From positions 1-62,691 of the forward strand of contig NZ_PQGG01000033.1 of assembly GCF_002915595.1 (NCBI RefSeq): DNA of 62,691 bases, written 5' to 3'. This DNA comes from Zhongshania marina. Its GTDB lineage: Bacteria; Pseudomonadota; Gammaproteobacteria; Pseudomonadales; Spongiibacteraceae. Numbering within the stretch: position 1 is the stretch's first letter; every line of letters begins with the position of its first letter. Below, piece after piece: positions 6,779-47,774 of the stretch. Under the pieces are notes generated by a model. It was not told where the DNA came from. It did no database searches and saw nothing but the letters and a program-made list of their open reading frames with translations. Both the position numbers and the translations under genes were made by a program.

Positions 6779-6793
6779 CTAATATACCATCAG
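6779..6793. promoter_or_regulatory. Regulon operator copy a (KshA-like promoter)
   Basis: CTAAT-atacc-ATCAG is an imperfect inverted repeat of 5-base half-sites with a 5-base spacer. It matches the element repeated upstream of many transcription units in this window. It lies between the KshA-like gene and the divergent TetR gene. A weaker version, TTGAT-gtaat-ATTAA (6945-6959), sits close to the TetR start and could be autoregulatory. Confidence 0.5.
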
Positions 6794-6994
6794 TTATTTT
6801 GGCTATCAAGGATTGCTGGTCGGAATTTTGTTAGCTATTCATCCTACGGTTTGTAAATTTATTACCTGAGCGTAGCTGTATTAGGGATTCTGCAGATGAG
6901 TAGCAATTTAGAGTTTTGTGGCAAGCTGCGATTTTTATTACAATTTGATGTAATATTAAGTTTCATTGTGTATGTTTTTTGGGCGTCCTAGAGA

Positions 6995-7660
6995 ATGCGA
7001 ACAGTAGTTACTACAAATAATCACGGCCAGTCGCTGGGTCGTAAAGGAGCGGAAACCCGCAAGCGGTTAATGGATGCGGCGCGTAAATTATTGAAATCGG
7101 GCTCTCCGGTAGAATTGACTGCGGTGTCAATTGCTAAGCGGGCAAAGTCATCTTCAGCCACTTTTTATCTCTATTTTTCTGATGTGCGGGGCATTTTACT
7201 TGCCTTAACTGAAGAGGCAGAGTCAGATATGCAGGCAGTGCACAATATCTTGGATGAACCTTGGGATCCTAAAATATTAGATGTTGAGCACTCCCGTCGG
7301 GTCGTAAATGCCTTTGTGTCGGTTTGGGATAAGCATCGCGAAGTTTTGCGCTACCGGAACTTAGAAGCGGATCGCGGTGATCCCGTTTTTGAGAATATTC
7401 GTTTGCGGACATCGGTACGGATTGTAAATCGCTTTGCCGAGCATATTGTCGCTGCTTACCCTGAAAATAGTGGTGGCACTAAAACCACTGCCCAGGCCGA
7501 TGCCTCGGTATTGGTAGCGGCAATGGAGCGTTTGGCGGCAACCGATCCCAAATCAGTTGAGCGTGGTGTGGGGGCCGACGAAATGTGGGGTGCAATGACG
7601 CGTATTATTGCAAGAACTCTCAGTGCACCACCGAGTCCAGCGGATTTTATGCAGGAATAG
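6995..7660 (+). CDS. TetR-family transcriptional regulator
   Basis: The 221-residue protein has the TetR N-terminal domain: ETRKRLMDAARKLL, then a helix-turn-helix ending SSSATFYLYFSDVRGIL (residues about 35-65). A variable ligand-binding C-terminal domain follows. It is divergent from the KshA-like oxygenase, and one full and one weak copy of the repeated palindrome lie between them. That makes it the best candidate for the regulator of the dispersed operator set. A ligand such as a CoA thioester or steroid intermediate is plausible but not shown. It is followed by a strong hairpin terminator. Confidence 0.88.
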   Translation: MRTVVTTNNHGQSLGRKGAETRKRLMDAARKLLKSGSPVELTAVSIAKRAKSSSATFYLYFSDVRGILLALTEEAESDMQAVHNILDEPWDPKILDVEHSRRVVNAFVSVWDKHREVLRYRNLEADRGDPVFENIRLRTSVRIVNRFAEHIVAAYPENSGGTKTTAQADASVLVAAMERLAATDPKSVERGVGADEMWGAMTRIIARTLSAPPSPADFMQE

Positions 7661-7698
7661 CAGTTTAATTAATACCGTTAATATGGTTATTGCTTAAT

Positions 7699-7732
7699 AA
7701 AAAACCGACGCTAGCAATAACGTCGGTTTTTT
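7699..7732. terminator. Bidirectional rho-independent terminator
   Basis: The stem AAACCGACG (7702-7710) pairs with CGTCGGTTT (7721-7729) around a 10-base loop. It is flanked by an A-run on the left and T-run on the right, so it can work for both convergent units: the TetR gene and the minus-strand ligase. Confidence 0.9.
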
Positions 7733-7749
7733 TATATCAAAAGCAGGTG

Positions 7750-9381
7750 TTAGCGCTTCTTGAGCTGAAACCCAGCTTTTTCACGGTCCCAGGTATTTGC
7801 GGTAACGCCTTCGTCACGCAGCTTGTATTTGAGAATACGGCCTACGGGGCTGCGGGGCATCTCAGCGCTGCTGCGAAATTCAAAGTAGCGCGGAACGGCA
7901 AAATAAGGCAGTTGTTCTGCCGACCAAGCGCATAGCTCTTCTTCTGTAAGGTTGCTGCCTTCTTTTACAGTAAGCGTAACTTTCAAGTCATCCTCAGTAA
8001 GTTCTGACAATACCGCATGAGCGGCGACATCTTCTATCGCGGGGTGACTGCGAAAGGCTGATTCCACTTCGAAGCTAGAGATGTTCTCGCCACGACGGCG
8101 CAAATAATCTTTTTTGCGGTCAACAAAATAGAAATAGCCATTTTCGTCGAACTTGCCGATGTCGCCAGTGTGGAACCACATATTTTGGTAGACCTTTAAG
8201 GTGTCTTCTGGCCGTTTCCAGTAACCCTGGAACATTACATTGGGACGCAGTGGCCGCACGATCACTTCCCCAGATTCGCCCTCGGGTACTTCAATACCGT
8301 TGTCGTCGATAATGCGCACATCAAAGCTGTCGTTACGCATGCCGGAGCAGTCTCCAGGCACTTGAATACCCAGTGGCACAGAGGTAACTAATGAGCATTC
8401 GGTCAGGCCAAAGCCTGGGCAGGCGGTGTGTTTGGCGCCAAAGCGCTTTTTCCACGCCTGTTGTAATTTGTCGGGAAAGGGGGCGCCGCCAACAATGGAA
8501 ATTTGCCCGAAGCAGCGCTTTTCGGCTTCGTTTTCTGGCGCGCCGAGCAACATGGGAAACATGGAGCCGAGCAAGGTGGTGTAGTTGGCGCCGGTTCGCT
8601 CAATTTCAGGCCAAAAATTAGATACAGAAAAACGTGGATAAATCGCGATACGGCCACCGTGCATAAGTTCGCAAATCACATTGCTTACCGCATTAAAGTG
8701 GAATAACGGTAGGGCTGTCCAGCTCACCGTCTCAGCGCTGCGACCAGTACCTTCGCTGACAACACGTGCCAAATTGCAGGCGTAGTTGTGGCTGACCATG
8801 CAGCCTTTGGATGGGCCAGTGGTACCGCCGGTATAAATCAACATCGCCAAATCTGCGGGGCCTACCTCAACTTGGGGGTCGCTGCTGTCATCAGACAATA
8901 ACTGTTCCCAGCTCATTACTTGACCGCCGAAACTAGCGCTTGGCGCGGTCCCGCGATGAACTAGGGTTTTTACGCTCGGCAGTTGCTCACCAATGGCGAT
9001 AACGCGGTCGGCGTAATCACTCTCGGCAATCACCACGCTGGCGTCGCTGTCACCCAATTGGTGGCGCAGGAACTCGCCTTTGTAGGCCGTATTAATGGGT
9101 ACAGAGATGGCGCCAAGCTTATTGATGGCCAGCCAAATAAAAACAGCGTCTTCACTATTATCGAGTAGCGTGGCGACGGTATGGCCTTTTTTGATACCTA
9201 GGGCGGTTAAACCGTTGGCAAGTCGGCACGCCTGCTTGTCGATGTCAGCGACGCTGAATTTCTTGCCAAGAAAATCTAAAAACTCTCTATCAGGATTGGC
9301 TTCAAGTGCCCGCCGAAGCACGGCGTTAATCGTATCCTGCTGCTCACTTCCCCATGGTGTGGGCGACTTTTCATTTGTCAT
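7750..9381 (-). CDS. AMP-dependent acyl-CoA ligase (CaiC/FadD type)
   Basis: An adenylate-forming enzyme of 543 residues from the ATG at 9381, which follows CGGGAAG and begins MTNEKSPTPW. An upstream in-frame start would add 26 unlikely residues. Visible motifs are the P-loop LIYTGGTTGPSKG, the acidic motif FHTGDIG, the hinge YFVDRKKDYLRRRGEN and the C-terminal lysine region SPVGRILKYKL. The best family match is the crotonobetaine/carnitine or fatty acyl ligase group. It activates a carboxylic acid to its CoA ester using ATP. A palindromic operator lies 45 bases upstream. The true substrate is probably a cyclic or side-chain acid of the island's pathway. Confidence 0.9.
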   Translation of the reverse strand: MTNEKSPTPWGSEQQDTINAVLRRALEANPDREFLDFLGKKFSVADIDKQACRLANGLTALGIKKGHTVATLLDNSEDAVFIWLAINKLGAISVPINTAYKGEFLRHQLGDSDASVVIAESDYADRVIAIGEQLPSVKTLVHRGTAPSASFGGQVMSWEQLLSDDSSDPQVEVGPADLAMLIYTGGTTGPSKGCMVSHNYACNLARVVSEGTGRSAETVSWTALPLFHFNAVSNVICELMHGGRIAIYPRFSVSNFWPEIERTGANYTTLLGSMFPMLLGAPENEAEKRCFGQISIVGGAPFPDKLQQAWKKRFGAKHTACPGFGLTECSLVTSVPLGIQVPGDCSGMRNDSFDVRIIDDNGIEVPEGESGEVIVRPLRPNVMFQGYWKRPEDTLKVYQNMWFHTGDIGKFDENGYFYFVDRKKDYLRRRGENISSFEVESAFRSHPAIEDVAAHAVLSELTEDDLKVTLTVKEGSNLTEEELCAWSAEQLPYFAVPRYFEFRSSAEMPRSPVGRILKYKLRDEGVTANTWDREKAGFQLKKR

Positions 9382-9425
9382 TGTCTGGCTTCCCGCAGTT
9401 GACGTTGTTATCGAACACCCATAAA

Positions 9426-9440
9426 CTAACACATAGTCAT
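9426..9440. promoter_or_regulatory. Regulon operator copy b
   Basis: CTAAC-acata-GTCAT, followed by TTATTGGTGCAA, closely resembles the plus-strand promoter modules at 37777, 41754 and 47701. It sits in the 272-base divergent region between the ligase (minus) and the DUF35-like gene (plus, start 9654), so it could control either or both. Nothing else recognisable lies in this region. Confidence 0.55.
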
Positions 9441-9653
9441 TTATTGGTGCAAATATCACTGCACTTGTTTAGACTCATTAGCAGCTCGGCGCGACACCCG
9501 TCGAGGTTTCGTCAGCGCAGTAGTTACATAAAATATAGTTTGCTGTTGGTGAATTTAAAGTATTTTTCATGATTTTAGCGGTCAAGTTCCGTTAATTCGA
9601 GTTAAAACAGCAAGGCGCATAAGTGCGGTCTTGCCTTGAGTGGAGAGCGTCCC

Positions 9654-10022
9654 ATGGCTGAAATTCGTCCCGATCTCGAATACCTCAGTTTTCTGAATGA
9701 GGGTAAGTTTTGTATTCAGCGCAGCAGCGGCAGCGGCAAATATGTGTTTTATCCGCGCACCATTGCGCCGGGCAGTGGCCTTGATGACTTGGAGTGGGTC
9801 GAGGCGGATGGTCGCGGCACGGTCTATTCAACAACCACAGTTCGCGCTCGTCCACCTAAAAGTGACTACAACGTGTCTTTGATTCAGTTACAGGAAGGCC
9901 CGCGCATGATGAGCCGCGTTGAAGGTGTCGCGCCGGATGCGGTTTGTATCGGTATGCCTGTTAAAGCACGAATTTTGATCGAGGGCGACGAGCCGCCCTA
10001 CATCGTATTTGATCCAGCCTAA
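9654..10022 (+). CDS. DUF35-like OB-fold protein lacking zinc-ribbon cysteines
   Basis: From the ATG at 9654 (after TGGAGAGCGTCCC) the product has 122 residues. The C-terminal two thirds match the DUF35 OB-fold (GRGTVYSTTTVRARPP, then GMPVKARILIEGDE). In normal family members the N-terminal rubredoxin-like ribbon carries two C-x2-C pairs. Here the corresponding stretch reads IQRSSGSGKYVFYPRTIAPG, with the cysteines replaced. DUF35 proteins partner with Ltp thiolases/aldolases or bind acyl-CoA. This one leads the 9654-16640 cluster and has no thiolase beside it, so its partner may be the thiolase at 24938. It may also have a separate structural role. Confidence 0.75.
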   Translation: MAEIRPDLEYLSFLNEGKFCIQRSSGSGKYVFYPRTIAPGSGLDDLEWVEADGRGTVYSTTTVRARPPKSDYNVSLIQLQEGPRMMSRVEGVAPDAVCIGMPVKARILIEGDEPPYIVFDPA

Positions 10023-10095
10023 GCCGGGTCACCACTTTATGGTGGTCGTTTGGCGGGGCCAAACCCACCCAAATACTTAAGTAAGGGAGAAGAAT

Positions 10096-10869
10096 ATGAA
10101 CAACCCAATGTCAATGGAAGGCCGTGTCATTATGGTAACGGGGGCCGGTCAGGGAATTGGCTTGGCCCTGAGCCGTCAATTACTCGACCTAGGCGCCAAA
10201 GTGGCGGGTGTTGATATGAATGCCGATACCTTAAATGGCGTGGCTAGCGATCTAGGTGAAGGCTTTTTGGCCCTGCCCGGCAGCGTTACCGACGTGAATT
10301 TTGCGGCAGAGGCGGTGACCCGCACAGTTGAGCATTTCGGTTCATTAAATGGCCTTATCAACAACGCAGGTATCACCCGCCCAGCGATGATCGAAAAAAT
10401 GTCGATTGAAGCGTGGCAGTCGGTGATCGACGTTAATTTGAGCGGTTCAGTGTACTTTATGCAGGCGGTAGGTCGGCATATGTTGGCTGAGGCCAAAGCG
10501 GGTAACAAAGAGCCTGGCGCCATTGTGAATATCGCCTCTGACGCGGGTCGTCGCGGCAGCTTAGGCCAAATTAACTACGCCTCCGCCAAGGCCGGTATTT
10601 TTGGCGCCACCATGACTGCAGCGCGGGAGTGGGCCAAATTTAATATTCGTTGTAACGCAGTGTGTTTTGGCGTGGTTGCCACCGCCATGACCGAAACCGT
10701 GCGTAACGACGAGCGTTTTGCTGACAATTACCTTGCTCAGATTCCTTTGGGCCGTTGGTCCTCACCAGAAGAAGTGGCCAAGCCGGTGTGTTTCTTATTG
10801 TCTGATGCGGCGTCTTATATCACCGGCCAGATTTTGTCTGTGAACGGTGGTTTCACTATCGCAATGTAA
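10096..10869 (+). CDS. Short-chain dehydrogenase/reductase (FabG/3-hydroxyacyl type)
   Basis: A 257-residue classical SDR. The Rossmann motif is VTGAGQGIGLALS, with an aspartate after strand two (GVDMNAD) favouring NAD(H). NNAG and the active-site YASAK are present, and the C-terminal ITGQILSVNGG closes the fold. It probably oxidises a 3-hydroxyacyl-CoA or a ring hydroxyl in the same pathway as the neighbouring acyl-CoA dehydrogenases. The gene follows AAGGGAGAAG and is 10 bases upstream of the ACAD small-subunit gene, indicating an operon. Confidence 0.9.
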   Translation: MNNPMSMEGRVIMVTGAGQGIGLALSRQLLDLGAKVAGVDMNADTLNGVASDLGEGFLALPGSVTDVNFAAEAVTRTVEHFGSLNGLINNAGITRPAMIEKMSIEAWQSVIDVNLSGSVYFMQAVGRHMLAEAKAGNKEPGAIVNIASDAGRRGSLGQINYASAKAGIFGATMTAAREWAKFNIRCNAVCFGVVATAMTETVRNDERFADNYLAQIPLGRWSSPEEVAKPVCFLLSDAASYITGQILSVNGGFTIAM

Positions 10870-10879
10870 GGTATTTGAA

Positions 10880-11950
10880 ATGCAGGAAATGGACGAATTT
10901 ATCGCGATGTTACGCGATAGCGCCGAGGGCTTTTTGGCTGATTTTCAGGCCTCGCCTGGCGCTAAAACCGAAATTGCTGTGCCGCGCCCGCTCAATCGCG
11001 AACTGTGGACTGCCATGGCCGAGTTGGGTTGGTTGGGACTGTTATTGCCAGAGTCGCAGGGCGGTTTAGCTTTGCCAGTATCGGCGGCGGCTGAGTTGGC
11101 AGACGTCATGGGCCGTTATCGTTTTCCGGTGCCGTATATCGAAGCGGCGATTATGCCTGCGCAAATATTGGCGGCGGCAGATAACGAGGCCTTGGCCGCA
11201 GAACTTATCAGCGGTGAAACTTTGTTCAGCCTAGCGTGGCAAGATCGCGCTGGGAGCGATGCGGCCTTTGCGGCGTGCGTCTTGAGCGATGGTCAAATCA
11301 GCGGTCAAAAAAGTTTTGTGGCGGCGGTCGAGCCGGGCAGTCAATTGCTGGTGTGTGTTAGCAGCGTTAATGGCCCTGCCATTGTGCTGGTAAACAGCGA
11401 TGCCGACGGCATCACCGCTCAGCGCAGTGCCACTGCGTCGGGGAGTTTTTGTCAGCTCAGTTTCGACAAGGTTACCTGCACGCCATTATTGGCTGGTACA
11501 GGTGCAGAGCAGGCTTTGGCCTCGGCCATAGCGGCGGGACGCTTATTGGCGAGTGCCTTCCTCAGCGGTTTGTCCCGCGCCTGTTTGCGCGACACGGTGG
11601 ATTATCTTAATCAGCGCCAGCAGTTTGGCCGAAAATTGTCGAGTTTTCAGAGTGTCTCCCACCGCTGCGTGGATATGCATATTCATATTGAGCTTGCAGA
11701 GGCAGTATGGCGAGTCGCCGCCGAGGCTGGCGATGAAGCAAGCTTAAGCGCCGCCAAGGCCCGTGCCAGCGATACCGCCCAAGATGTTTGCCGTCAGGCT
11801 GTGCAGCTGCATGGCGCGATGGGCTTTACCGAGGAGTGCTCGGTGGGTGAATACCTGCGCTTGGCGCTCCAATACGGCAATTGGCTGGGCAGCGCTAAAA
11901 GCATGCGCCGCGCGTTTCAATCGGCACGCACAGCGGAGGCCTTGGCATGA
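10880..11950 (+). CDS. Acyl-CoA dehydrogenase, small/beta-type subunit
   Basis: Start chosen at ATG 10880, after the SDR stop and an AAGG site (356 residues). The C-terminal half carries LNQRQQFGRKLSSFQ (the R-x2-FG FAD-contact motif) and QLHGAMGFTEE, but the FAD-binding middle motif is poorly conserved. This matches the partner subunit of alpha2beta2 steroid-type ACADs such as ChsE4-ChsE5. Its stop overlaps the next ACAD start by four bases (ATGA, 11947-11950), supporting a stoichiometric heteromer. It would introduce a double bond in a bulky acyl-CoA. Alone it is probably inactive. Confidence 0.85.
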   Translation: MQEMDEFIAMLRDSAEGFLADFQASPGAKTEIAVPRPLNRELWTAMAELGWLGLLLPESQGGLALPVSAAAELADVMGRYRFPVPYIEAAIMPAQILAAADNEALAAELISGETLFSLAWQDRAGSDAAFAACVLSDGQISGQKSFVAAVEPGSQLLVCVSSVNGPAIVLVNSDADGITAQRSATASGSFCQLSFDKVTCTPLLAGTGAEQALASAIAAGRLLASAFLSGLSRACLRDTVDYLNQRQQFGRKLSSFQSVSHRCVDMHIHIELAEAVWRVAAEAGDEASLSAAKARASDTAQDVCRQAVQLHGAMGFTEECSVGEYLRLALQYGNWLGSAKSMRRAFQSARTAEALA

Positions 11951-13137
11951 ATAGCTTAAATGTAAATCGCGATGAAATGGATGATGCCGATTTTCGCGCT
12001 GAATTTCGCGCATTTTTGGCAGAGCATTATCCCGCAGAACTGAAGCAAGATTTTCATCGGCCCTTCCGTCGTTTGCGTGGCGAACCCGCTAATGACTGGC
12101 AGCGAACGTTGCAGAAGCATGGTTGGCGCGCGCCGGCATGGCCTCGGGAAAGTGGCGGTATGGGATTGTCGTTCCGCAAGCAGCTGATTTATCACGAAGA
12201 GCTGGAGCACGCGGGGGTGGCGCGCATTATCGATCTGGGCGAAACCCAACTCGGCCCCACCATTATTAAAATGGGCAGCCCTGAGCAGAGCGAGTATTAC
12301 CTACCGCGCATACTTAACTGCGAGCATGTGTGGTGTCAGGGTTATTCCGAACCCAATGCCGGTTCTGATCTGGCGAGTTTGCGCACCAGCGCCGAATTAG
12401 ATGGCGACGAGTTTGTGGTGAATGGCCAAAAAATTTGGACTACTCACGCCAATGACTCCACCCATATTTTTACCTTGGTGCGCACCGGTAAGTTTGAAAA
12501 GAAACAGCAGGGCATTAGCTTTTTGCTGATTGATCTCGACACTCCTGGTATCTCAATTCGACCGATTATTAATTTGGCGGGCGAAGACGAGTTTTGCGAA
12601 GTCTTCTTTGAAAATGTTCGGGTGCCAAAGGCCAATTTGGTTGGCGAATTACATCAGGGCTGGACGGTTGCTAAAGCTTTGCTCGGTTACGAGCGGGTGT
12701 GGATTGGCAGCCCGGCACTGGCTGGCAAAGCTCTCGCCCTTGGCGAACATCTGGTGCAGCAATTGGGCTTGGAGGACGACCGCGGGGTAATGGATGAATT
12801 GGCGCAGTTGCAAGCGGATCTCCACGACTACCGTCTGCTTTACTCCCGCACCTGCGACGCTATTGCCGACAGTGGTAAAGCGCCGGGGCCAGAGGTGTCG
12901 ATGCTCAAGGTTTACGCCTCGGAGTTACTGCATCGCCTGACGGAATTCAATGTTGAGATTGGTGCTGAGTATGGTGCAGTGGTGGGCGATGTCGAGATTG
13001 GCGGCGTTTCAACTGCGGATATGCAGGCAGATTTATATTGGCAATTAATGATGGCGCGTCCAGTCACCATATTTGCCGGTGCCAATGAAATACAGCGAGA
13101 TATTCTCGCCAAAACTGTTCTCGGCCTGCAGGCCTGA
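11947..13137 (+). CDS. Acyl-CoA dehydrogenase, large/alpha-type subunit
   Basis: This 396-residue ACAD has an N-terminal helical domain, the FAD/substrate motif GYSEPNAGSDLASLRTSAE and VNGQKIWTT in the middle. The C-terminal FAGANEIQRDILAKTVLGL completes the domain. It overlaps the preceding small-subunit gene by four bases, so the two are translationally coupled and probably form one heterotetramer. The family oxidises acyl-CoA to enoyl-CoA and passes electrons to ETF. In steroid degraders such pairs act on side-chain or ring-derived CoA esters. The substrate here is unknown. Confidence 0.92.
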   Translation: MNSLNVNRDEMDDADFRAEFRAFLAEHYPAELKQDFHRPFRRLRGEPANDWQRTLQKHGWRAPAWPRESGGMGLSFRKQLIYHEELEHAGVARIIDLGETQLGPTIIKMGSPEQSEYYLPRILNCEHVWCQGYSEPNAGSDLASLRTSAELDGDEFVVNGQKIWTTHANDSTHIFTLVRTGKFEKKQQGISFLLIDLDTPGISIRPIINLAGEDEFCEVFFENVRVPKANLVGELHQGWTVAKALLGYERVWIGSPALAGKALALGEHLVQQLGLEDDRGVMDELAQLQADLHDYRLLYSRTCDAIADSGKAPGPEVSMLKVYASELLHRLTEFNVEIGAEYGAVVGDVEIGGVSTADMQADLYWQLMMARPVTIFAGANEIQRDILAKTVLGLQA

Positions 13138-13173
13138 TCTGGATGCCGACACAATGATCGGCAGCAAAGGAGT

Positions 13174-15560: not shown

Positions 15561-15593
15561 TTCGCTTATTTAAAGAACGGAAAAAGTGCTGTT

Positions 15594-16640: not shown

Positions 16641-16715
16641 GATAATTGCGCCGTAGAGATAAAAGAGCGTAGCACTGCGAATTGCCAGCGAGGCGCGCAT
16701 GTGCTAATTTGAAAG

Positions 16716-16730
16716 CTAACACATAGTTAG
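16716..16730. promoter_or_regulatory. Regulon operator copy c (perfect palindrome)
   Basis: CTAAC-acata-GTTAG is an exact inverted repeat of 5-base arms. It lies 94 bases upstream of the crotonase start. This is the most symmetric copy of the repeated element and defines the half-site CTAAC. Confidence 0.6.
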
Positions 16731-16823
16731 TTGTTGGGGCGGCCAAGAAGTGCTGAATTCAACAGCTGCATTGATTGGACTCGGGCCACCTTGAACACCC
16801 GTCCAGCAATAACGGAGATGAGC

Positions 16824-17624
16824 ATGGAATATAACGATATTACTTATGAAAAAACCGGCGCTGTACTGCGGGTTTGCCACAACCGTCCAGACAAGGGCAA
16901 CGCCCAGTCAACGCGCTTGCTCGCCGAGCTAGACGACGCGCTGGCCCGCGCCAAGGCAGATAGCGAAGTGCGTGTTGTGATTATTGGCGGTCAGGGAAAA
17001 CATTTCTCGGCGGGTCACGATCTGGCCGACGGCATGAAGCTGCGTGGTGATTACACCGTAGAGCAACACTGGCACTGGGAGCAGGAACACTTCCTTGGCA
17101 ATGCCATGCGTATTTGGGATCTGCCCAAGCCTACGATTGCTGAAGTCAGCGGCGCCTGTATCGCTGGTGGTTTTATGGTCGCTAACTCTTGCGATTTGGT
17201 CATTGCCAGCGACGACGCTTACTTCTCTGATCCAGTGTTGCATTCCATGGGCGCTGCTGCGGTAGAAGCGCTGCTCCACCCTTGGGTACTGAATACCCGT
17301 AAAGCCAAAGAACTGCTGTTCACTGGCGGTAAAATCAGCGCCCAAGACGGCAAAGAGTGGGGCATGGTCAACCACGTTGTGCCCCGCGCTGAGCTGGAAG
17401 ATTTCACCATGAAAATGGCTCAGCAAATTGCCAAGGCGCCGCCACACGCTACCGCCATGCTCAAGCGCTCGCTGAATCGCACCGCCGATATTCAAGGTTA
17501 CCGCAATTCGCTTAACGCCCACTTCGACACTCACACGGTAAGCTCTTCTACTAAGGAGTTTTGGGATATCGTTAACCAGGGCGTAGCGAAAATGGTTTCT
17601 GAAGGCAAAAAGTCTGGCGAATAA
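16824..17624 (+). CDS. Crotonase-superfamily protein, atypical active site
   Basis: Start at ATG 16824, after CGGAG at 16813-16817, gives 266 residues. The earlier in-frame start at 16731 has no ribosome site. The crotonase fold is clear: GGQGKHFSAGHDL for the first oxyanion loop and SGACIAGGFMVANSCD for the second. In enoyl-CoA hydratases the two catalytic glutamates would lie in GG-x-x-E-L and PE. Here those positions read methionine (GGFMVA) and valine (DPVLHSMG). It is therefore probably not a standard hydratase and may be an isomerase, hydrolase or C-C lyase. It is four bases from the SnoaL-like gene. Confidence 0.85.
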   Translation: MEYNDITYEKTGAVLRVCHNRPDKGNAQSTRLLAELDDALARAKADSEVRVVIIGGQGKHFSAGHDLADGMKLRGDYTVEQHWHWEQEHFLGNAMRIWDLPKPTIAEVSGACIAGGFMVANSCDLVIASDDAYFSDPVLHSMGAAAVEALLHPWVLNTRKAKELLFTGGKISAQDGKEWGMVNHVVPRAELEDFTMKMAQQIAKAPPHATAMLKRSLNRTADIQGYRNSLNAHFDTHTVSSSTKEFWDIVNQGVAKMVSEGKKSGE

Positions 17625-17628
17625 ACCA

Positions 17629-21415: not shown

Positions 21416-21441
21416 GGCTTGCCGACTTATTATTTAATTTA

Positions 21442-21456
21442 GTGATTATGTGTCAT
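21442..21456. promoter_or_regulatory. Regulon operator copy d
   Basis: GTGAT-tatgt-GTCAT, which on the minus strand reads ATGAC-acata-ATCAC. It lies 26 bases upstream of the minus-strand ligase start. It matches the spacing of the other copies but has weaker symmetry. Confidence 0.45.
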
Positions 21457-21575
21457 TTATATTAGCTGTTGGCGCTGCGTAGTTGTAGTGCTTTTCAATA
21501 TTTAATCACCTATTTTTACGTCGTGTTGGTGTATGTGGCTCGGAAAAGTCTGGTGTGCTTCGTGTTGATCAGTAG

Positions 21576-21590
21576 CTGATTATGTGTTAG
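21576..21590. promoter_or_regulatory. Regulon operator copy e
   Basis: CTGAT-tatgt-GTTAG lies in the same 275-base divergent region as copy d, upstream of the MaoC gene. On the minus strand it reads CTAAC-acata-ATCAG, sharing CTAACACATA with copies b and c. Confidence 0.55.
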
Positions 21591-21690
21591 TTTTTGTGTA
21601 GATTTGAGTGCTTGCTACTGTCCATTTGACGAGTTTGCCGCTACAGCGCTTAGGCGCTGTGGATTTCATTATTAGCTTGGAGTGTATCGC

Positions 21691-24934: not shown

Positions 24935-24937
24935 TTT

Positions 24938-34046: not shown

Positions 34047-34214
34047 TTCTTATAATTAATATCTTGTTGTTAGTTTTTTTGGCATCATATTGTCGTCATT
34101 CATAAATCTGCTATCTGTGTGGATTTTGGGTACTTAATGTGGCGATTTTATTGGCGGTGACAAGTGATGAATCCCAAACATTGTTTTTTGTAGGATATAG
34201 TATTATCATAATAA

Positions 34215-34229
34215 CTGACGTATAGTAAG
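34215..34229. promoter_or_regulatory. Regulon operator copy f (TonB receptor 1)
   Basis: CTGAC-gtata-GTAAG lies 38 bases upstream of the receptor start, so near the transcription start, as expected for a repressor site. The same half-sites (CTGAC and GTAAG) recur in copy g. Confidence 0.55.
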
Positions 34230-34267
34230 TTTTAAACCGCTTAGACAACTAAAAGTAGGTAAATAAA

Positions 34268-36685: not shown

Positions 36686-36752
36686 TGTCATGATTAAAGC
36701 CTAGCCAGCGGGGTGTTAATTACCCTATGCCTAGGCAGTTAAATATCTCTTT

Positions 36753-36784
36753 GGCGCACTTAGTAATAAGTGCGCCTTTTTTGT
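36753..36784 (+). terminator. Rho-independent terminator after TonB receptor
   Basis: GGCGCACTTA (36753-36762) pairs with TAAGTGCGCC (36767-36776) around a GTAA loop and is followed by a T-run. This isolates the receptor as a monocistronic unit. Confidence 0.92.
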
Positions 36785-36922
36785 ATTTAGGAAAATGAAT
36801 TTATTGCATTGCGGTGAGGATGGTATTTTCGTTGCGATATCGTGATTCGATGTATCGGCGGCGTATAGCGATAATTGACAATAAAGTGAGCGTTATTTAA
36901 TTCTACGGTGTTGATAATATAG

Positions 36923-36937
36923 CTGACTAATAGTAAG
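36923..36937. promoter_or_regulatory. Regulon operator copy g
   Basis: CTGAC-taata-GTAAG lies 38 bases before the AveC-like gene, the same distance as copy f from its gene. It overlaps a possible promoter region starting with TTGATA (36911). Confidence 0.55.
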
Positions 36938-36975
36938 TTATATGCTGAATGATACTTTAGAATAAGGATAAGAAG

Positions 36976-37743: not shown

Positions 37744-37776
37744 CCAGGGCGTTTTGTTGAATGGTTGATGCATTAA

Positions 37777-37859
37777 CTTACTACCTGTCATTTATTGTTG
37801 ACATAATAATTGTCTAGGTGATAGCGTGAGAAGATAGTACATCTGTATAAGGTTTGGCA
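37777..37859 (+). promoter_or_regulatory. Composite promoter module with operator copy h
   Basis: CTTAC-tacct-GTCAT (37777-37791) is followed by TTATTG, TTGACA (37798-37803), a GATAGC region and then AGTAC-N3-TGTATA (37836-37859). Order and spacing match the modules before the second TonB receptor and the second Rieske gene. It faces the small membrane protein and SDR genes. Confidence 0.6.
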
Positions 37860-37983
37860 CGTTGTTGAGTAGTGCTTTTAGTGGCGGTGTGTCAAAACAT
37901 CTTAATTGATGTGCAAATACTGAGTTCGGTGACGATATTGCACCGCTTATTTTTGATTTATTTCTACGGAGTGGAATTAAGGG

Positions 37984-38238: not shown

Positions 38239-38365
38239 AATTTAACCTAATTTGTACGTTTGTATAGTGTTAATGATGAGTGTTGCCTTTTAGATGATAC
38301 ATTTATTTGAATATCTGGTGATGCGGTTGAGATCACTGAAAAACTAAAATAATTGAGATGGAACT

Positions 38366-39178: not shown

Positions 39179-39202
39179 AAAATAATAGTGTATAGGTGCA
39201 AT

Positions 39203-40531: not shown

Positions 40532-40572
40532 TTACCCTGGCTTTAAGGTTTAGCTAATAGGAAGAGTAATGT

Positions 40573-41535: not shown

Positions 41536-41753
41536 ATGACGTGGATTATAAGTTATTTTTATACAATAAATTTATACTACATTGCTTATATAAAGAATAT
41601 TTATATCTAATTTTGTTCTACACGAGATCTGAGTGAATTTATTAACGTCTTCGTTACGCTATTCTCAATACTTTCCTTTCATGATTGTTTTCTAGGTGAA
41701 TGGTTAAGGCTCCTATATTCTATACAAGCAGTAGCTTTGGTGACTGAATAAAA

Positions 41754-41829
41754 CTTACACACCATCATTTATTCCTTGACATGGCGGTGAGTGGGTAGAT
41801 ACGATTACATTGAGTTGTACGGTTGTATA
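41754..41829 (+). promoter_or_regulatory. Composite promoter module with operator copy i
   Basis: The 363-base gap 41536-41898 holds no gene. It contains CTTAC-acacc-ATCAT (41754-41768), TTGACA (41776-41781), a -10-like TACGAT (41800-41805) and TGTAC-N3-TGTATA (41816-41829). These match modules h and j in order and spacing and lie 70 bases before the TonB receptor start. Confidence 0.6.
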
Positions 41830-41898
41830 ATTACCTGCTGTAGAGTTGATCAATAAAAACGCTTACATAGAGTAATTTATGCGTCCAGCTCGTCAACT

Positions 41899-44289
41899 AT
41901 GAATAAGAATAAAATTATAGGTGGAGGGCATAATTGGGTGAGCACAGCTAATTTTCGCGCGTTAGTAAGAGTATGTTCGTTATCGCTAGCGGCTATGGCG
42001 GTATTGTTACATGGTGATGCCGCATTCTCTGCAGATGTAGTTGAAACCAAGCGCAAAAATCGCTTGCTAGAAGAGGTTGTGGTTACGGCTCAGAAGCGGG
42101 AAGAGAATGCGCAGGATGTACCGGTCTCTGTGCTAGCTTTGAGTGGTGATATGTTAGAGGCAATGGGTGTTGACGACCCAAGCGATTTGCAGGCAGTGAC
42201 CCCTGGGTTGACTTATGGTTCTGCGACAGGTTTTGCCATTGTTTATTTGCGTGGTGTGGGCTCCGACGCCTTTTTGATGGCCGACCCGAGCGTTGCAACT
42301 TATATAGATGGTATTTACTACCCCTTCGCCAGTGGCTTGGCACAATCATTTGGTAAAGTTGAGCGCATAGAGGTACTTAAAGGCCCGCAGGGCACCTTGT
42401 TTGGGCGAAATACCACTGGTGGCGCAATCAGTATTACCACTGAAACACCAAGTTTTGATGAAATGCATGGATCGGTAAGTTATACCTACGGACATTACGA
42501 AGAAAATGGAGCCGATTTTCAAAAGGCAAGAGCAAATATCAATATCCCATTTACTAGCAACCTTGCTGCTACTTTGGCGGTATTTTCAGATACTGCAGAG
42601 CAGTATATGCGTTTCGATGAGGAATCCATTCAACAACATTCACCTGACGAAATTGCACAGGGGTATCGCTTTAAAATAAAGGCGAGTTTTGCTGAAAAGT
42701 TTGATCTTATGTTGGCGGCAGTGGGTGTTGAGCAAAGCGGATTTAATACAGCATTAGCGCCGAATACTGGCCCATCTGATCTTGCAGTATTGTTAGGGGC
42801 GGAGAAGCAAGATAGAGATTATTCGGTATCGGTAAATGCACCTATCAATTTTGATATTGATAGTGAAGTGTATTTTGCTGAGTTTAACGCTTATCTTGAC
42901 GCTTTAGATATAAAGCTATTGGTCAGCGATCAGTATATAAATAATTTAGGAAAAACTGATTTCGATGGAAGCAATGCCCCCATTGCTTATTTTGGCGCAC
43001 CAGTTTATTCGGATGTGAAGACGGCTGAATTGCAACTGCTCTCAAATGAAAATAGTTGGGGTGCGGGTTGGTTGCAGTGGGTTGCAGGTTTGTACTATAT
43101 CGATAGTGTTGCAGGTGTATCGGCTGAGTTGGCATTGCTGGGTGGGGAGACGGGGCAGGCTGGGTTGTTTGGGTTAAGTGTGCCAGTAGATGACATTATC
43201 AGTTTGGTGCCAGGTCTTACAGAGATTTTGGGGCCAGTCCCGCTCGCTGGTGGGCTTAGTCTTCATTTGGAGGGGGAGCTGGCGACGGAGTCTAGCGCGG
43301 CATTTGCGCAAACCACATTCACGTTTAATGAGTGGTCGGAAATGTCTCTGGGGGCTAGATATCAGCAAGAAAGTCGCCACGTGTTGCAGTCTAGTTTTGG
43401 TTTGACTAATGGCGACGGCTCTTATACTACCGCCATAGATTGGGCAAGTGGTGGCGCAACACCAACGACGGCAGATTCGACGAATTTCTCACCGAAAATA
43501 TCATTTAATTTTTATCCACTCGACGACACGATGGTCTATTTGTCTGCACAAAAAGCGTACAAAAGCGGGACGTTTAATACCTTTAATATCAACAGCGACA
43601 TCGATTACGCAGGCCCTGAAGATGTCACCGCGTATGAGCTAGGTTTAAAGTACACGAGCTCTGGTGGAAATCTAAGAGTTAATACTGCGATATTTGAAAC
43701 TACCGTTGACGATATTCAGGTTCAGGTAGTGTCGCTTTTGGCTGGGGGGACGGTGCGGCTAGAAAATGCAGGCTCGGCGCGTATTCGAGGAGCTGAGGTC
43801 GATGCAACCATCATGCTGTTTCCCGCTCTGGTTGATGATTTGATTTTAGCCTTCGGCGGTGCGTATTTGGACGGCGTTTACACAGATTATAAAGATGGCA
43901 CAGGTTTTAACGAATCAACGGGCTTGTATGAAGAAGGGCAGGATTTTACTGGCAAACCCGTGGTGAGAACGCCTGAGTTCTCAGGAACAATCGCCTTAAG
44001 CAAGATGGTTAATACTGAGCTGGGGCCCTTGGAGTTGACGGTTGATGGGTATTATAACTCTGGCTATTCCTACTTGGCCCAGGGCGACCCATTTAAAGAA
44101 GCTGAATATTATCTGGTGAATGCGCGAATTAGTTATTTATTAGAGGATCTAGGTTTGAGGTTTACGCTGTCTGGAAAAAATCTCGCTGATACCATACATG
44201 CTTATTCGCAGTTTCCCAATGATTTCGGCAGATTAGAGGCCTTAGCGCCACCCAAGAGCTACAGCGTTTCGGTAGCTTGGGAAATGTAA
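41899..44289 (+). CDS. TonB-dependent outer-membrane receptor (second)
   Basis: 796 residues. The signal sequence has a long n-region and the hydrophobic CSLSLAAMAVLLHGDAAFSA. The plug start is LLEEVVVTAQKREENAQDVP, with IVYLRGVGSDAF and IEVLKGPQGTLFGRNTTGG following. The barrel ends with an aromatic/charged VAWEM. It is of the same broad subfamily as the 34268 receptor but diverged. Its promoter carries operator copy i and the composite module, so the two receptors seem co-regulated. Genes for a beta-rich protein and two kinases follow in the same direction. Confidence 0.95.
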   Translation: MNKNKIIGGGHNWVSTANFRALVRVCSLSLAAMAVLLHGDAAFSADVVETKRKNRLLEEVVVTAQKREENAQDVPVSVLALSGDMLEAMGVDDPSDLQAVTPGLTYGSATGFAIVYLRGVGSDAFLMADPSVATYIDGIYYPFASGLAQSFGKVERIEVLKGPQGTLFGRNTTGGAISITTETPSFDEMHGSVSYTYGHYEENGADFQKARANINIPFTSNLAATLAVFSDTAEQYMRFDEESIQQHSPDEIAQGYRFKIKASFAEKFDLMLAAVGVEQSGFNTALAPNTGPSDLAVLLGAEKQDRDYSVSVNAPINFDIDSEVYFAEFNAYLDALDIKLLVSDQYINNLGKTDFDGSNAPIAYFGAPVYSDVKTAELQLLSNENSWGAGWLQWVAGLYYIDSVAGVSAELALLGGETGQAGLFGLSVPVDDIISLVPGLTEILGPVPLAGGLSLHLEGELATESSAAFAQTTFTFNEWSEMSLGARYQQESRHVLQSSFGLTNGDGSYTTAIDWASGGATPTTADSTNFSPKISFNFYPLDDTMVYLSAQKAYKSGTFNTFNINSDIDYAGPEDVTAYELGLKYTSSGGNLRVNTAIFETTVDDIQVQVVSLLAGGTVRLENAGSARIRGAEVDATIMLFPALVDDLILAFGGAYLDGVYTDYKDGTGFNESTGLYEEGQDFTGKPVVRTPEFSGTIALSKMVNTELGPLELTVDGYYNSGYSYLAQGDPFKEAEYYLVNARISYLLEDLGLRFTLSGKNLADTIHAYSQFPNDFGRLEALAPPKSYSVSVAWEM

Positions 44290-44319
44290 ATATAATCTCT
44301 AACTGTAGTGGATGATCGT

Positions 44320-45339
44320 ATGAATAATAATTTTGATGCACTCGACTCCTCTCGAGAATTTGCGTTGCATGAGTCGGCTCCTCAGTACCGTTATGCAGAG
44401 AACTATATGCTTTCTGCATATGACGCAGTGGCAGATATTGGTTTGTGGCTGCATCTAGGTACTTGCCCCGATGACTTCGGTTTGTGGGAAGACCAAGTGT
44501 TAATTTCGCTGCCTGGCGATGGCGGGCTGCTATGGATGAGTTCCTACCATCGAACGCCACCGGAGCGCAGGCCTGCGAGCGGCTCATTGCGCTTTGAATG
44601 CATTGAGCCATTTAAGCGATGGCGGGTGACGTTCGACGGCGTTGCGGTGCACTCTTCTAATCAAGAAATGATGTCTGGCAGAGTTAGGGACGGCATTAAG
44701 AGACTGCTTAAATTCCAGTTTGATATTGCGTGTGTGGCACCAGTATGGGATACCCATGAAACTGCGATGGCTGCGCATGGTCGTGGCAGCATGCGAGATC
44801 AATCTTGGGCCAGTCAGCATTATCAGCAATTATTCAGCTGCCAAGGCGACATTACCGTTGCTGGCGTTCGCACAGAGTTTGATGGTCGAGGTGTGCGGGA
44901 TCATTCCCGAGGGCAGCGGGGACATGCCATGGATCAGTATGGCGGTCACAATCTTTTTACTGCGCTGTTCCCGAGCGGACGAGCTTTTGGCTTGATGGCG
45001 ATGTGGGCACCGAGCGGTGCTGTGAGTCTATCTGTTGGCTATGTCGTTGAACAAGGTAGGCTCTATCACGCCGATATCATAAGTCCCCCTATAAAAATTA
45101 CTGAGGTTCGCCAAGGCGACGAGCAATTTGAAATTTGCTTGCGCTCCGAGCTGGGTGAGCACGTGATTGGCGGTGGGATTATCCGCTCTATATTTGCCAC
45201 CGCCCTTGAAGATTGGGGTATGGCGTTTGGCGCTGATGCTGGAAATCAGCGCTTGATATTAGCACCGTCATTCGCGCGTTGGACGTGGAATGGCGAGGTC
45301 AGCTACGGTCTGGCGGAGCGATCAAATCGCTTCGCTTGA
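44320..45339 (+). CDS. Beta-rich protein of unknown function (DUF7064/CrtC-like?)
   Basis: Start at ATG 44320 (339 residues), after GTGGATGATC. It is soluble, with two beta-rich halves: GLWLHLGTCPDDFGLWEDQV and FSCQGDITVAGVRTEFDGRG, the latter followed by RDHSRGQRG. That pattern recalls lipocalin-like hydroxyneurosporene synthase/AttH proteins and the DUF7064-type proteins often found beside APH-like kinases. No catalytic motif is sure. It lies 41 bases before the first kinase gene, so these three genes probably form a unit. A hydratase or lipid-binding role is possible. Not assigned. Confidence 0.5.
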   Translation: MNNNFDALDSSREFALHESAPQYRYAENYMLSAYDAVADIGLWLHLGTCPDDFGLWEDQVLISLPGDGGLLWMSSYHRTPPERRPASGSLRFECIEPFKRWRVTFDGVAVHSSNQEMMSGRVRDGIKRLLKFQFDIACVAPVWDTHETAMAAHGRGSMRDQSWASQHYQQLFSCQGDITVAGVRTEFDGRGVRDHSRGQRGHAMDQYGGHNLFTALFPSGRAFGLMAMWAPSGAVSLSVGYVVEQGRLYHADIISPPIKITEVRQGDEQFEICLRSELGEHVIGGGIIRSIFATALEDWGMAFGADAGNQRLILAPSFARWTWNGEVSYGLAERSNRFA

Positions 45340-45380
45340 ATTGGTAAATTGTTTAAAAAGTTCAAATGTAGGAGGCAGGT

Positions 45381-46505
45381 ATGAGTGCCGAGAGAAGTCC
45401 TAATATTGGTGTGCCAACGCAATCTCAACAACGGGATTTAGATCAGGCTAAGCGAGTTGTTGAACAATGGCTTAGCTCTAAATTGCATTCTGAGTCTGGT
45501 GTGCGAGTTAATCGCGTAACAATGCCAGATGGTAGCGGTGTATCCAGCGAAACCTTGATGGTTGATGCGGTGGTCGCTGGTGTAGATCGGCGTTATGTGG
45601 TGAAGGTAGATACTCCCAACGGCCTGTATATGAACGCCAGTTTAAAATCGCAGTATGACGTGGCTAATGCTCTTCGTGCCGAGACGATACTTCCGGTTCC
45701 GGAATTGTACGGTTATGAAGCTGATGCCAGTCTGCTAGGTCAGCCGTTTTACGTTATGGAGTGTATAGCGGGCAAAGTGCCTGCAGATAATCCGCCATTT
45801 CATTTGAGCGGTTGGGTGGCTGATCAAACTGTAGAACAGCGGAAAGCGACGTGTAGCAGCGCACTAGACACCTTGGTGAATTTGCATAAAGTAGATGTAA
45901 ATACGATAAATTTTTTAAATCGTCCGGCCCGTGGCTCCAGCGGTTTTGATCAGGAATTTAATTATTATTTGGAATATGGACGGTGGGCAATGCCGGAGGG
46001 TTTACCTGAGCTTATCGTTAAGTCAGAGCAATGGCTAAAGGCGAATTACCCAGACCATACACCCACGGGGTTTTCTTGGGGTGATGCGCGCATGGGCAAT
46101 ATGATGTTTAACGGACAAGATTGTGTAGCGGTATTTGATTGGGAAATGGCTTCTTTGGGTGGAGCTGAATTGGATTTGGCGTGGTGGGCTTGTATGGATC
46201 GAGCAACAACATTGAGCTTGGGTATTCCGCATTTAGAAGGGGTTATATCGCCGGCCGAGCTTATTGCTGGATGGGAGGATCGTATGGGTCGAAAAGCACA
46301 AAATATGAAGTTTTATTTAGTTTTTAACGCCTATCGTCTGGCGGTTATTGTGCTCAGATTGTCGCGTATGTTGCAGGCTGCCAAACGGTTGCCGCCAGAA
46401 TCTGAGTGGATGCTGAACAATAATACCGGAATGCAATATCTGGCAACCATGCTGGATATCGAGCCGGCGGGGGAAATTACCCAGGCCTGGCCTGGATTGG
46501 ACTAA
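45381..46505 (+). CDS. APH-family phosphotransferase (ACAD10/11-type kinase domain)
   Basis: 374 residues of the aminoglycoside-phosphotransferase fold. An N-lobe with VVKVDTP leads to the catalytic loop SWGDARMGNMMF and the metal-binding FDWEMASLGGAELDLAWW. In most members the loop begins H-G-D; here tryptophan replaces the histidine, but the aspartate and asparagine remain. It is preceded by a strong AGGAGG site. Members near acyl-CoA enzymes (ACAD10/11, LvaA) phosphorylate 4-hydroxyacyl-CoA. Antibiotic resistance is unlikely in this setting. The exact substrate is inferred. Confidence 0.8.
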   Translation: MSAERSPNIGVPTQSQQRDLDQAKRVVEQWLSSKLHSESGVRVNRVTMPDGSGVSSETLMVDAVVAGVDRRYVVKVDTPNGLYMNASLKSQYDVANALRAETILPVPELYGYEADASLLGQPFYVMECIAGKVPADNPPFHLSGWVADQTVEQRKATCSSALDTLVNLHKVDVNTINFLNRPARGSSGFDQEFNYYLEYGRWAMPEGLPELIVKSEQWLKANYPDHTPTGFSWGDARMGNMMFNGQDCVAVFDWEMASLGGAELDLAWWACMDRATTLSLGIPHLEGVISPAELIAGWEDRMGRKAQNMKFYLVFNAYRLAVIVLRLSRMLQAAKRLPPESEWMLNNNTGMQYLATMLDIEPAGEITQAWPGLD

Positions 46506-46517
46506 GCGGAGATAAAA

Positions 46518-47606
46518 ATGAGCACGTATTCCATACCCAAAAATATCAATGAAGTTACCCCAGAGTGGATGACTTGGGCTCTCGCCCAGCATTCAGTCGG
46601 GGTAAAAATCCACAACGTTGAAATAGTCAATGTGTTTGAGGGCACGTCCAGTCGTATTCGCGTACGAATTGAGCGCAATGAGGCGGCGATTGCGGCTGGG
46701 ATTCCCGAGTATTTGTGTGTAAAGGCAAACTGGACTGAACACGCAGATTTTACGATGGTGGCGGGGTTGTGGGCGATAGAGGCCATGTTTTATCAGCGTA
46801 TTAGGCCGCATATCGATATGTTGGCGCCAGTTGCGTATTACTCAGATTATGACTCTGTCAGTGGTCAAGGCATTATTTTAATGGAGGATCTTGTACAAAA
46901 AAATGTCACCTTCGGAAGTAATCTTAATACATTGTCTGTTGATCAGTTGATGCTAGCGTTGGAGGATTTTGCCGCCTTACATGCGCGCTGGTGGGGTAGC
47001 GAAGATTTAATGAAAATGGACTGGCTGCCCTTGGCCCAGGGCGAAGGTACCTTGGATGCTGAGTTTGTAAATTTTCAGGGCGGCGCAGAGGGTATGGCAC
47101 GTTTGCTGGCGCCACCAGAGCGCGCGGCTACCTTGTCTGCTCAGGCGAACGACGCTGAGAAAATTGCAAAAGTGGTCGATGCGCTTGTGCAGCGAGAAGC
47201 GAGCTCAACGGCACCTCGATGTCTGATTCATGGCGATACCCATCTGGGTAACAGCTATTGGGTGAATGGTCGCATGGCTTGGTTGGACTGGCAGTTGGTG
47301 CGAAGAGGGCGTCCGATAAGAGAGGTCTTTTATGTTATTGGCTGTAGCTTAAGTGTAGAGGATAGGCGTAAACATGAACGAGATTTGCTAAAGCATTATC
47401 TCAGCGCTTTAAGCGCTCATGGTGTCGATCATGGCATGAGTTTCGACGATGCATGGCTGGAGTATCGCCACTGGCCAGTTTGGGGCTTTATCTGCTGGGC
47501 AGTTACTCAAGATGGCTGGCAGCCAAAGGAGGTTATTTTGGAAACCATGCGCAGATTTGGAGCTGCCATCGACGATCTAGAAACCTATTCACTGTTTGGC
47601 CTGTAG
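46518..47606 (+). CDS. APH-family phosphotransferase (second kinase)
   Basis: 362 residues of the APH/ecdysteroid-kinase-like fold with the catalytic loop LIHGDTHLGNSYW and metal loop LDWQLVRRGRPIRE. Unlike its neighbour it keeps the H-G-D. It is only 12 bases downstream with GGAG, so both kinases are coexpressed. Ecdysteroid kinases phosphorylate steroid hydroxyls and ACAD10/11-type kinases act on hydroxyacyl-CoA. Either fits a hydrophobic-substrate pathway. Two different kinases suggest two substrates or a heteromer. Confidence 0.8.
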   Translation: MSTYSIPKNINEVTPEWMTWALAQHSVGVKIHNVEIVNVFEGTSSRIRVRIERNEAAIAAGIPEYLCVKANWTEHADFTMVAGLWAIEAMFYQRIRPHIDMLAPVAYYSDYDSVSGQGIILMEDLVQKNVTFGSNLNTLSVDQLMLALEDFAALHARWWGSEDLMKMDWLPLAQGEGTLDAEFVNFQGGAEGMARLLAPPERAATLSAQANDAEKIAKVVDALVQREASSTAPRCLIHGDTHLGNSYWVNGRMAWLDWQLVRRGRPIREVFYVIGCSLSVEDRRKHERDLLKHYLSALSAHGVDHGMSFDDAWLEYRHWPVWGFICWAVTQDGWQPKEVILETMRRFGAAIDDLETYSLFGL

Positions 47607-47700
47607 TCAAAGAAGGGCGTGTTGCAGTTTTGCTTGATAGGCCAAGTAGTTTCTGCAATTCGCTACTTATATGAATCAGCGCGTAGCCTTAAATAAAAAA

Positions 47701-47774
47701 CTTACACATAGTTACTTATTGTTGACAAGCTATAACGTGGTGGATAGTATGAATTCCAATTGTACGACTGTATA
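47701..47774 (+). promoter_or_regulatory. Composite promoter module with operator copy j
   Basis: The 355-base gap 47607-47961 contains no gene. It holds CTTAC-acata-GTTAC (47701-47715), TTGACA (47722-47727), a -10-like TAGTAT (47745-47750, 17-base spacer) and TGTAC-N3-TGTATA (47761-47774). This is the clearest of the three composite modules, oriented toward the Rieske gene, and leaves a leader of nearly 200 bases. Confidence 0.62.

Follow-up and report, generated by a model that had tools for sequence, protein, structure and literature searches.

Which regulator ties together the catabolic genes spread along a 62,691-nucleotide stretch of Zhongshania marina DNA (contig NZ_PQGG01000033.1, positions 1 to 62,691, hereafter the window)? 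An original prediction, made from the sequence alone, listed ten copies of a 15-bp palindromic operator and proposed that one TetR-type protein, probably the product of the gene at 6995, controls them as a dispersed regulon. Here, we argue that the operators are probably bound by a dimer of this protein (hereafter 6995), which would repress about twenty promoter regions of a single catabolic cluster until an inducer is present. This cluster is split between the window, which is contig C27 of its genome, and a second contig, C12. The regulon is real and 6995 is well supported as its regulator. The design is a common one; what is new is the particular regulator-operator pair with its gene list, and perhaps a second box found at some of the promoters.

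The genome holding the window (G000) belongs to a genus set of 18 genomes (G000 to G017), and a wider set comprised 115 genomes. We built a symmetrised operator matrix only from the ten window sites, ignoring the middle positions, and scored it on selected sequence stretches; genome-wide, only patterns were counted. The backward control is the same matrix or pattern read backwards without complementing.

A probable 25-bp operator on two contigs

All ten predicted 15-mers are present at their coordinates with the half-sites proposed, and the palindrome is real. Yet the dyad is wider, about 25 bp, and the ten 15-mers are its cores. It approximates AATAACTNAYNNNNNRTNAKTTATT. An alignment of 22 sites from the window and another contig has conserved AA at positions -9/-8, T at -6, A at -4 and C or T at -3, with an outer AAT and an unconstrained 5-bp middle, and the 65 distinct sites of at least 16 bits give the consensus aAtAAcTgAcnnnnngTcAgTTaTt. 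The centres of the half-sites (AAMTNAY) are separated by about 10 bp, or one helical turn. Leave-one-out scores of the ten sites range from 13.2 to 26.1 bits, and a first-order Markov model of the window predicts about 1.1 matches of at least 12 bits per window length. One of the ten, at 21442, is an imperfect copy. The list was also incomplete: scores of at least 16 bits are reached by a further window site, at 34059, and by 12 sites of C12.

The sites had been described as all intergenic, and the regulon proposal was to count as refuted if the motif proved equally frequent in coding regions. Checked within the window, the proposal was not refuted: the matches concentrate outside genes. With hand-edited gene starts, under which non-coding DNA makes up 10.3% of the window, all 11 matches of at least 16 bits (the ten and 34059) are non-coding, as are 11 of 12 at 14 bits, where a coding match at 54020 appears, and 13 of 15 at 10 bits, where 56148 is added. 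The description as intergenic does depend on this editing. Site 9426 lies within the longest GTG-start frame of a ligase gene and counts as 5' leader only if the ligase starts at an internal ATG; without the edit, 10 of 11 matches of at least 16 bits are non-coding. In locus L072, the ligase frame itself starts downstream of the operator. At 16716, the 15-mer ends one base upstream of a TTG start.

The second contig carries the same signal. The 12 sites on C12 fall within 62.9 kb, mostly before acyl-CoA/steroid-type catabolic genes, and three other C12 stretches (40 kb) hold no site of at least 16 bits (top score 12.8). The backward matrix matches once in those 62.9 kb and never in the window; over seven scanned stretches it gives 2 matches vs 71 forward. 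The exact core pattern, AAMTNAYNNNNNRTNAKTT, occurs at 22 places in the 4.13-Mb genome: nine on C12, five on C27 and eight elsewhere. That is, two contigs making up 4.9% of the genome hold 14 of 22 places, and all 14 score at least 17.6 bits with the full matrix. Among the eight elsewhere, one scores 12.8 bits, one 8.5 and six less than 8.5. When the window is excluded, C12 has 9 of the remaining 17 places (P ~5e-8, corrected for the number of contigs). The one-mismatch form of the pattern is mostly noise (202 places vs 158 in the backward control).

Not every C12 site fits as simply. The site at 103458 sits 38 bp within the longest open frame, and the alignment suggests a later start for that gene. 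Rather than preceding a catabolic gene, site 3227 is flanked by a TetR gene on one side and, on the other, by a gene named by eye as peptide-release-factor-like; site 113200 precedes a gene without a known family. Two operators, at C12:101923 and 101999, stand 75-76 bp apart before an amidohydrolase gene, a spacing kept in 4 of 4 aligned genomes; such a pair could allow cooperative binding or a loop.

In two relatives, the operators are found together. All 12 exact matches in Spongiibacter thalassae KMU-166 (G001) fall in a 126-kb stretch of a single contig (654 to 780 kb), and 7 of 9 in the congener G012 fall in 57 kb (1.024 to 1.081 Mb). Most genes in these clusters are orthologous to window and C12 genes, united in a single region. 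The word 'dispersed' was, in this respect, too strong. The window and C12 contigs belong together functionally, and each ends with one copy of a shared transposase, as judged by its translated start (window 61803-62678, C12:137927-138802); this repeat may be the cause of the contig break. The 80 kb read in G012 contain neither the genes from the later part of the window (36976, P450, second TonB and second Rieske) nor the sites that go with them.

Conservation extends to the sites themselves, which we aligned in 14 ortholog groups and one mixed group. Sites at orthologous genes often share an identical 15-mer, and near-identical sites at orthologous genes are found across genera. For the Rieske type, all but one position agree in 8 of 8 sites (7 genomes), one of which, in L072, precedes a different gene. 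In the fragmented genome G003 (130 contigs, 84% complete) there are 14 exact matches, and the three places scored reach 18.5, 19.8 and 20.6 bits. G048 has 15 matches vs 6 in the control, with a scored subset at 15.9-24.0 bits. The G048 locus on its contig C17 (L076) comes from a record labelled as a Verrucomicrobiaceae metagenome-assembled genome (MAG), yet the genome is placed in the window's order; it has the TetR gene and strong operators.

The TetR-family protein 6995

The proposed operator-binding protein is encoded at 6995..7660 on the forward strand. It has 221 amino acids and the Pfam domains TetR_N and TetR_C_38. The TetR_N helix-turn-helix scores 25.1 bits against PF00440 (cut-off 24), and no NCBIfam model matched at E 0.001. 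Its AlphaFold model is all-helical, with ten helices (pLDDT 87.7), and its best PDB fold matches, among the matches listed, are TetR repressors.

The co-occurrence of gene and operator points to this protein. At E 1e-15, 6995 is detected in 4 of the 18 genus genomes (G000, G001, G003 and G012). Once the backward control is subtracted from the motif count, these four retain 16, 5, 8 and 4, compared with -6 to +4 for the remaining 14 genomes (P 0.0023 by a one-sided rank test, kinship uncorrected). Motif counts alone are weak evidence; clustering and upstream conservation are strong evidence. A search of genome contigs with 6995 gave ten loci; one of them, L071, coincides with the G001 place and was used in the upstream-operator test but omitted from the operator scan of loci. 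The relatives at least about 50% identical to 6995 come from the window's genus, Pseudomaricurvus, Aestuariicella, an uncultured member of the Pseudomonadales, Hydrocarboniphaga, Solimonas and the G048 MAG. In all ten, the 350 bp upstream contain an operator (15.6-24.3 bits), a score that 0 of 2000 Markov-simulated upstream sequences reached for each of them. Three relatives at about 50% identity have the operator variant CTGAAATATACTCAG. Two remoter matches (33%, and 44% over 48 residues) have no operator upstream. Separately, Sphingobium sp. TCM1 carries a 21.5-bit operator-like site (L077:3301) about 6.7 kb from a TetR gene whose product is 33% identical to 6995.

Several observations weigh against this assignment. 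Two genus genomes without the TetR gene, G010 and G017, reach a motif excess of +4, equal to that of G012, and some TetR-less genomes of the order, among the 115, have a larger one (G074, 18 vs 4; G089, 45 vs 29; counts only). Two paralogues in G037 (33-34% identity) have no site of at least 12 bits in their 3.5-kb loci. The scores cover 3 of the 14 exact places in G003 and a minority of the 15 in G048. Moreover, the operator stands 107-282 bp from the TetR start, and direct autoregulation of 6995 is, for this reason, weakly supported. A weak copy in front of 6995, also part of the original prediction, does exist (6955..6979, forward strand; 15-mer at 6960; 11.6 bits), with counterparts of 11.6, 11.5 and 16.7 bits in the loci L047, L048 and L072 and none of at least 11 bits in L049. 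A class-wide search for orthologues at E 1e-35 returned only the window's own genome among 369, and the co-occurrence consequently rests on the 18 genus genomes and the named loci.

Taken as a sequence-based argument, the proposal of one regulon run by 6995 gains support from the C12 sites, the clustering in two relatives, the co-occurrence and the operators upstream of all ten relatives. In the mechanism that we consider probable, a 6995 dimer would bind the 25-bp dyad at some twenty promoter regions of the one cluster. Without inducer, it would occupy the -35/-10 region or the DNA just downstream of the start and block RNA polymerase. Release of 6995 from the operator would be brought about by an intermediate early in the pathway, possibly an acyl-CoA thioester, and would switch on all at once the genes for the Rieske protein, ligase, acyl-CoA dehydrogenase, hydratase, TonB receptor and P450.

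Promoter layout and competing explanations

We scored promoters in groups of orthologous genes around sites, using hand-entered sigma-70-like frequencies, with 1000 flank shuffles per group as a control that ignores kinship. In the Rieske group, all eight aligned sites (7 genomes) have TTGATA, TTGCCC or TTGCTC, a 17-bp spacer and TATATT, with the -10 inside the operator (0/1000 shuffles). In the window, on the reverse strand, the first operator covers the spacer and the -10 of this promoter (-35 TTGATA at 6804-6809, -10 TATATT at 6781-6786). At MaoC2 (C12:122780), the operator lies between the promoter elements in 3 of 3 sites, with a poor -35 (1/1000), and at the acyl-CoA dehydrogenase group (C12:131445) it lies over a promoter with TTGAAA, 18 bp and TATTAT or TATGAT in 3 of 3 (44/1000). 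The 96837 group has TTGGAT, 16 bp and TATAAT in 4 of 4, and its likely start lies about 20 bp before the operator centre (0/1000). The promoter lies upstream of the operator for enoyl-CoA hydratase (-35 at -41 in 3 of 3; 1/1000) and for the amidohydrolase (TTGACA at -40 in 4 of 5, poor -10; 1/1000). At MaoC (21576), TTGA at -18 ranks first in 2 of 3 (39/1000). Where a consistent layout was scored, repression is likely, because the operator mostly covers or follows a conserved promoter.

This picture is not uniform, and the exceptions count against pure repression by 6995. The ligase, thiolase, lig2, TonB1 and SDR103 promoters agree no better than shuffles, and the two 36976 sites differ in their best promoter, making a sixth group without a consistent one. 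For 37777, 41754 and 47701, the operator stands upstream of the top-scoring promoter, an arrangement expected of an activator; these promoters could reflect activation or some other geometry. Some TetR proteins activate, and 6995 might bind the sites and activate, or be a dual regulator that activates these three promoters, an idea that we regard as unlikely though still the best of the alternatives. In its favour, TTGACA begins 14 or 15 bp past the operator centre at all three and at the TonB site 693856 of G001, placing the operator near -50. As the positions differ by one base, the shuffle control counts only two of the four as alike, a level reached by 95/1000 shuffles. The G001 short-chain dehydrogenase/reductase (SDR) site 673144 does not share the layout, other conserved promoters have the operator over or after their core elements, and the three promoters also have a second box near the inferred start that could itself be the switch.

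This second box, TTGTACNNNTGTATAR, occurs at the downstream-type promoters, once with a mismatch, 58-61 bp past the operator start to start. All window copies are on the forward strand: 37835..37850 (one mismatch to the searched form, 58 bp past the operator at 37777), 41815..41830 (exact, 61 bp past that at 41754), 47760..47775 (exact, 59 bp past that at 47701) and 38252..38267 (exact, before SDR gene 38366), the distances being measured between 15-mer and box starts. The exact form, TTRTACNNNTGTAYAR, was searched in four genomes and occurs three times in G000, all in the window, four times in G001, all in the cluster, and in neither G012 nor G003. All seven exact boxes are oriented with the downstream gene. 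The boxes at 38252 and at G001 673238, 696725 and 709368 do not keep the 60-bp distance, and the one at 696725 has no operator of at least 14 bits nearby. With one mismatch, G000 has 13 boxes vs 19 in the control. Among the four genomes, the box occurs where the TetR genes 50994 and C12:135498 occur; the interval 50994-51683 contains no box. As a lead only, the box may belong to a promoter, or it may be where a second regulator binds. One might tentatively picture two layers of control, with 6995 acting on the whole cluster and a second regulator (perhaps 50994) acting through TTGTACNNNTGTATAR at the SDR/P450, TonB and second Rieske promoters, which would open only on two signals; we hold this to be possible but doubtful.

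The main rival to 6995 for operator binding is the LysR-type protein of C12:98068, which would bind the sites as an activator and leave the TetR protein a bystander or secondary regulator. A T-N11-A dyad is a feature of LysR-type operators, and the palindrome fits such a box, with a nearly invariant T at -6 and A at +6. Furthermore, C12:98068 is kept in the cluster of G000, G001, G012 and the Pseudomaricurvus locus L070, and in all four an operator occupies the divergent region upstream of this gene. Both points tell against 6995, although a T-N11-A match does not by itself make the operator a LysR site. On the other hand, searches at E 1e-40, a strict threshold for a fast-changing protein, did not detect the LysR protein in G003 or G048, both of which have the TetR gene and scored sites; nor, at E 1e-5, did it match anything in L072, L074, L075 and L076, 20-kb stretches that are parts of genomes. 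Its sequence keeps 54-66% identity while the sites at orthologous genes hardly change, and operators over the -10 or past the start would suit an activator poorly. On balance, we find a LysR activator quite improbable.

Less credible still, with a very small chance of being right, is that another TetR protein binds the operators, be it 50994, C12:2318, C12:135498 or C46:2720. Three of these genes (50994, C12:2318 and C12:135498) lie in or near the cluster, and there is an upstream site of 19.1 bits at C12:2318 and of 12.8 bits at C46:2720. The protein 50994, the fallback regulator of the original prediction, is found at E 1e-30 in G000, G001 and G048 of the 115 genomes and is absent from the searches of G003 and of G012, which bears operators. 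C12:135498 is found at the same threshold in G000 and G001 only, of 115. As neither is found in G012 at E 1e-30, they do not explain that genome, and neither is found in G003 at that threshold. Relatives of C12:2318 turn up in 8 of 19 genomes. Three of these genomes (G005, G009 and G011) show no motif excess, two of the matches in these three contain stop codons, and 6 of 6 other loci have no operator. We thus disfavour all three. The fourth gene, C46:2720-3316 of G000 (L035), is an additional TetR gene with a weak operator-like site upstream. Finally, chance or the composition of AT-rich promoters can be practically dismissed: the outer dyad positions are indeed AT-rich, but the coding/non-coding distribution in the window, the 2 vs 71 matches of the backward control and the near-identical sites at orthologues across genera reject such an origin.

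Cluster function, known systems and individual sites

The genes of the cluster suggest that it breaks down a steroid- or isoprenoid-like compound. This reading follows from a KshA_C Rieske protein, a ChsH2-type OB-fold and zinc-ribbon protein, a thiolase C-terminal-like protein, a MaoC/MFE-2 hydratase and a protein (C12:133814-135526; L033:5814-7526) in which an SCP2 sterol-transfer domain is followed by a cytochrome P450 domain. Further genes encode a class III CoA-transferase, two-domain acyl-CoA dehydrogenases, the amidohydrolase and an aldehyde dehydrogenase. One report describes steroid-degrading isolates of Spongiibacteraceae in the BD1-7 clade (PMC5790920). Through the shared operator, the family-less genes 36976, C12:95645 and C12:113272 can be placed in the pathway. 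More broadly, the analysis supplies a list of genes for a catabolic cluster in relatives of marine oil- and steroid-associated genera, together with a regulator and an operator whose pairing can be tested.

Among the papers listed in a literature search, limited for subscription papers, none described the operator, the cluster or its regulator. The closest parallels are in design. KstR and KstR2 are TetR repressors of actinobacterial cholesterol catabolism; KstR likewise combines one TetR protein with many palindromes and a large steroid-type catabolic cluster, a likeness of design only, in another phylum (Actinobacteria). EdcR of Caenibius tardaugens is an estrogen-dependent TetR repressor of a steroid catabolic cluster whose palindrome overlaps -10 boxes (PMC8700777), much as at the Rieske promoters here. 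Its operator, TnnCnnTACnAnTnGTAnnGnnA, differs from our consensus, its effector domain is TetR_C_11 rather than the TetR_C_38 of 6995, and it acts on four promoters, in contrast to some twenty regions here.

Among the fold matches listed, the best to the 6995 model is EthR of Mycobacterium tuberculosis (Foldseek E 2.3e-6, TMq 0.72) at 18% identity, a likeness that is silent on ligand or operator. The acyl-CoA-binding TetR proteins DesT, FasR and FadR follow further down among the 50 matches listed (E 4e-5 to 2e-4), and DesT has weak sequence similarity to 6995 (E 9e-4). These matches hint at a possible acyl-CoA ligand for 6995.

Site by site, the window reads as follows, with each operator given as its 25-bp dyad. 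Operator 1 (6774..6798, reverse strand, 24.0 bits) lies between the TetR gene and the proposed target, a Rieske oxygenase gene with a KshA_C domain (5702..6709, reverse strand; PF19298 1.5e-27, PF00355 2.2e-19). Operator 2 (9421..9445, reverse strand, 24.2 bits) would serve acyl-CoA ligase 7750 and the divergent ChsH2-type OB-fold/acyl-CoA dehydrogenase genes from 9636 onward; its 15-mer is identical in 5 of 5 aligned genomes, the window included. Operator 3 (16711..16735, forward strand, 19.4 bits) is assigned to enoyl-CoA hydratase 16731, whose true start is probably near 16824, and similar sites exist in G012 and L070. Operator 4 (21437..21461, reverse strand), the imperfect copy, is assigned to acyl-CoA ligase 19883 and scores 16.7 bits (G012 18.5, G001 16.6). 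Operator 5 (21571..21595, forward strand) precedes MaoC hydratase 21682 and two-domain acyl-CoA dehydrogenase 22631, with 21.1 bits (G012 17.3, G001 17.6).

Operator 6 (34054..34078, reverse strand, 16.7 bits), the copy absent from the original list, is assigned to flavin oxidoreductase 32034. Its counterpart before the G012 orthologue scores 20.0 bits, and there is no site of at least 14 bits before the G001 orthologue. The remaining operators are on the forward strand. Operator 7 (34210..34234) would serve TonB receptor 34268, with 26.9 bits (G012 26.9, G001 24.7), and operator 8 (36918..36942) the gene 36976, with 24.4 bits (G001 26.0); the product of 36976 had been called AveC-like, a name that no Pfam or NCBIfam match backs. 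Operator 9 (37772..37796, 24.7 bits) is assigned to the SDR 38366/P450 39188 genes and lies upstream of TTGACA at 37798-37803. Operator 10 (41749..41773, 23.5 bits), for TonB receptor 41899, lies upstream of TTGACA at 41776-41781, and operator 11 (47696..47720, 24.8 bits), for the Rieske 47962 operon, upstream of TTGACA at 47722-47727. At the left contig end, positions 758-3958 of the window hold transposase-like and integrase-like frames (named by eye).

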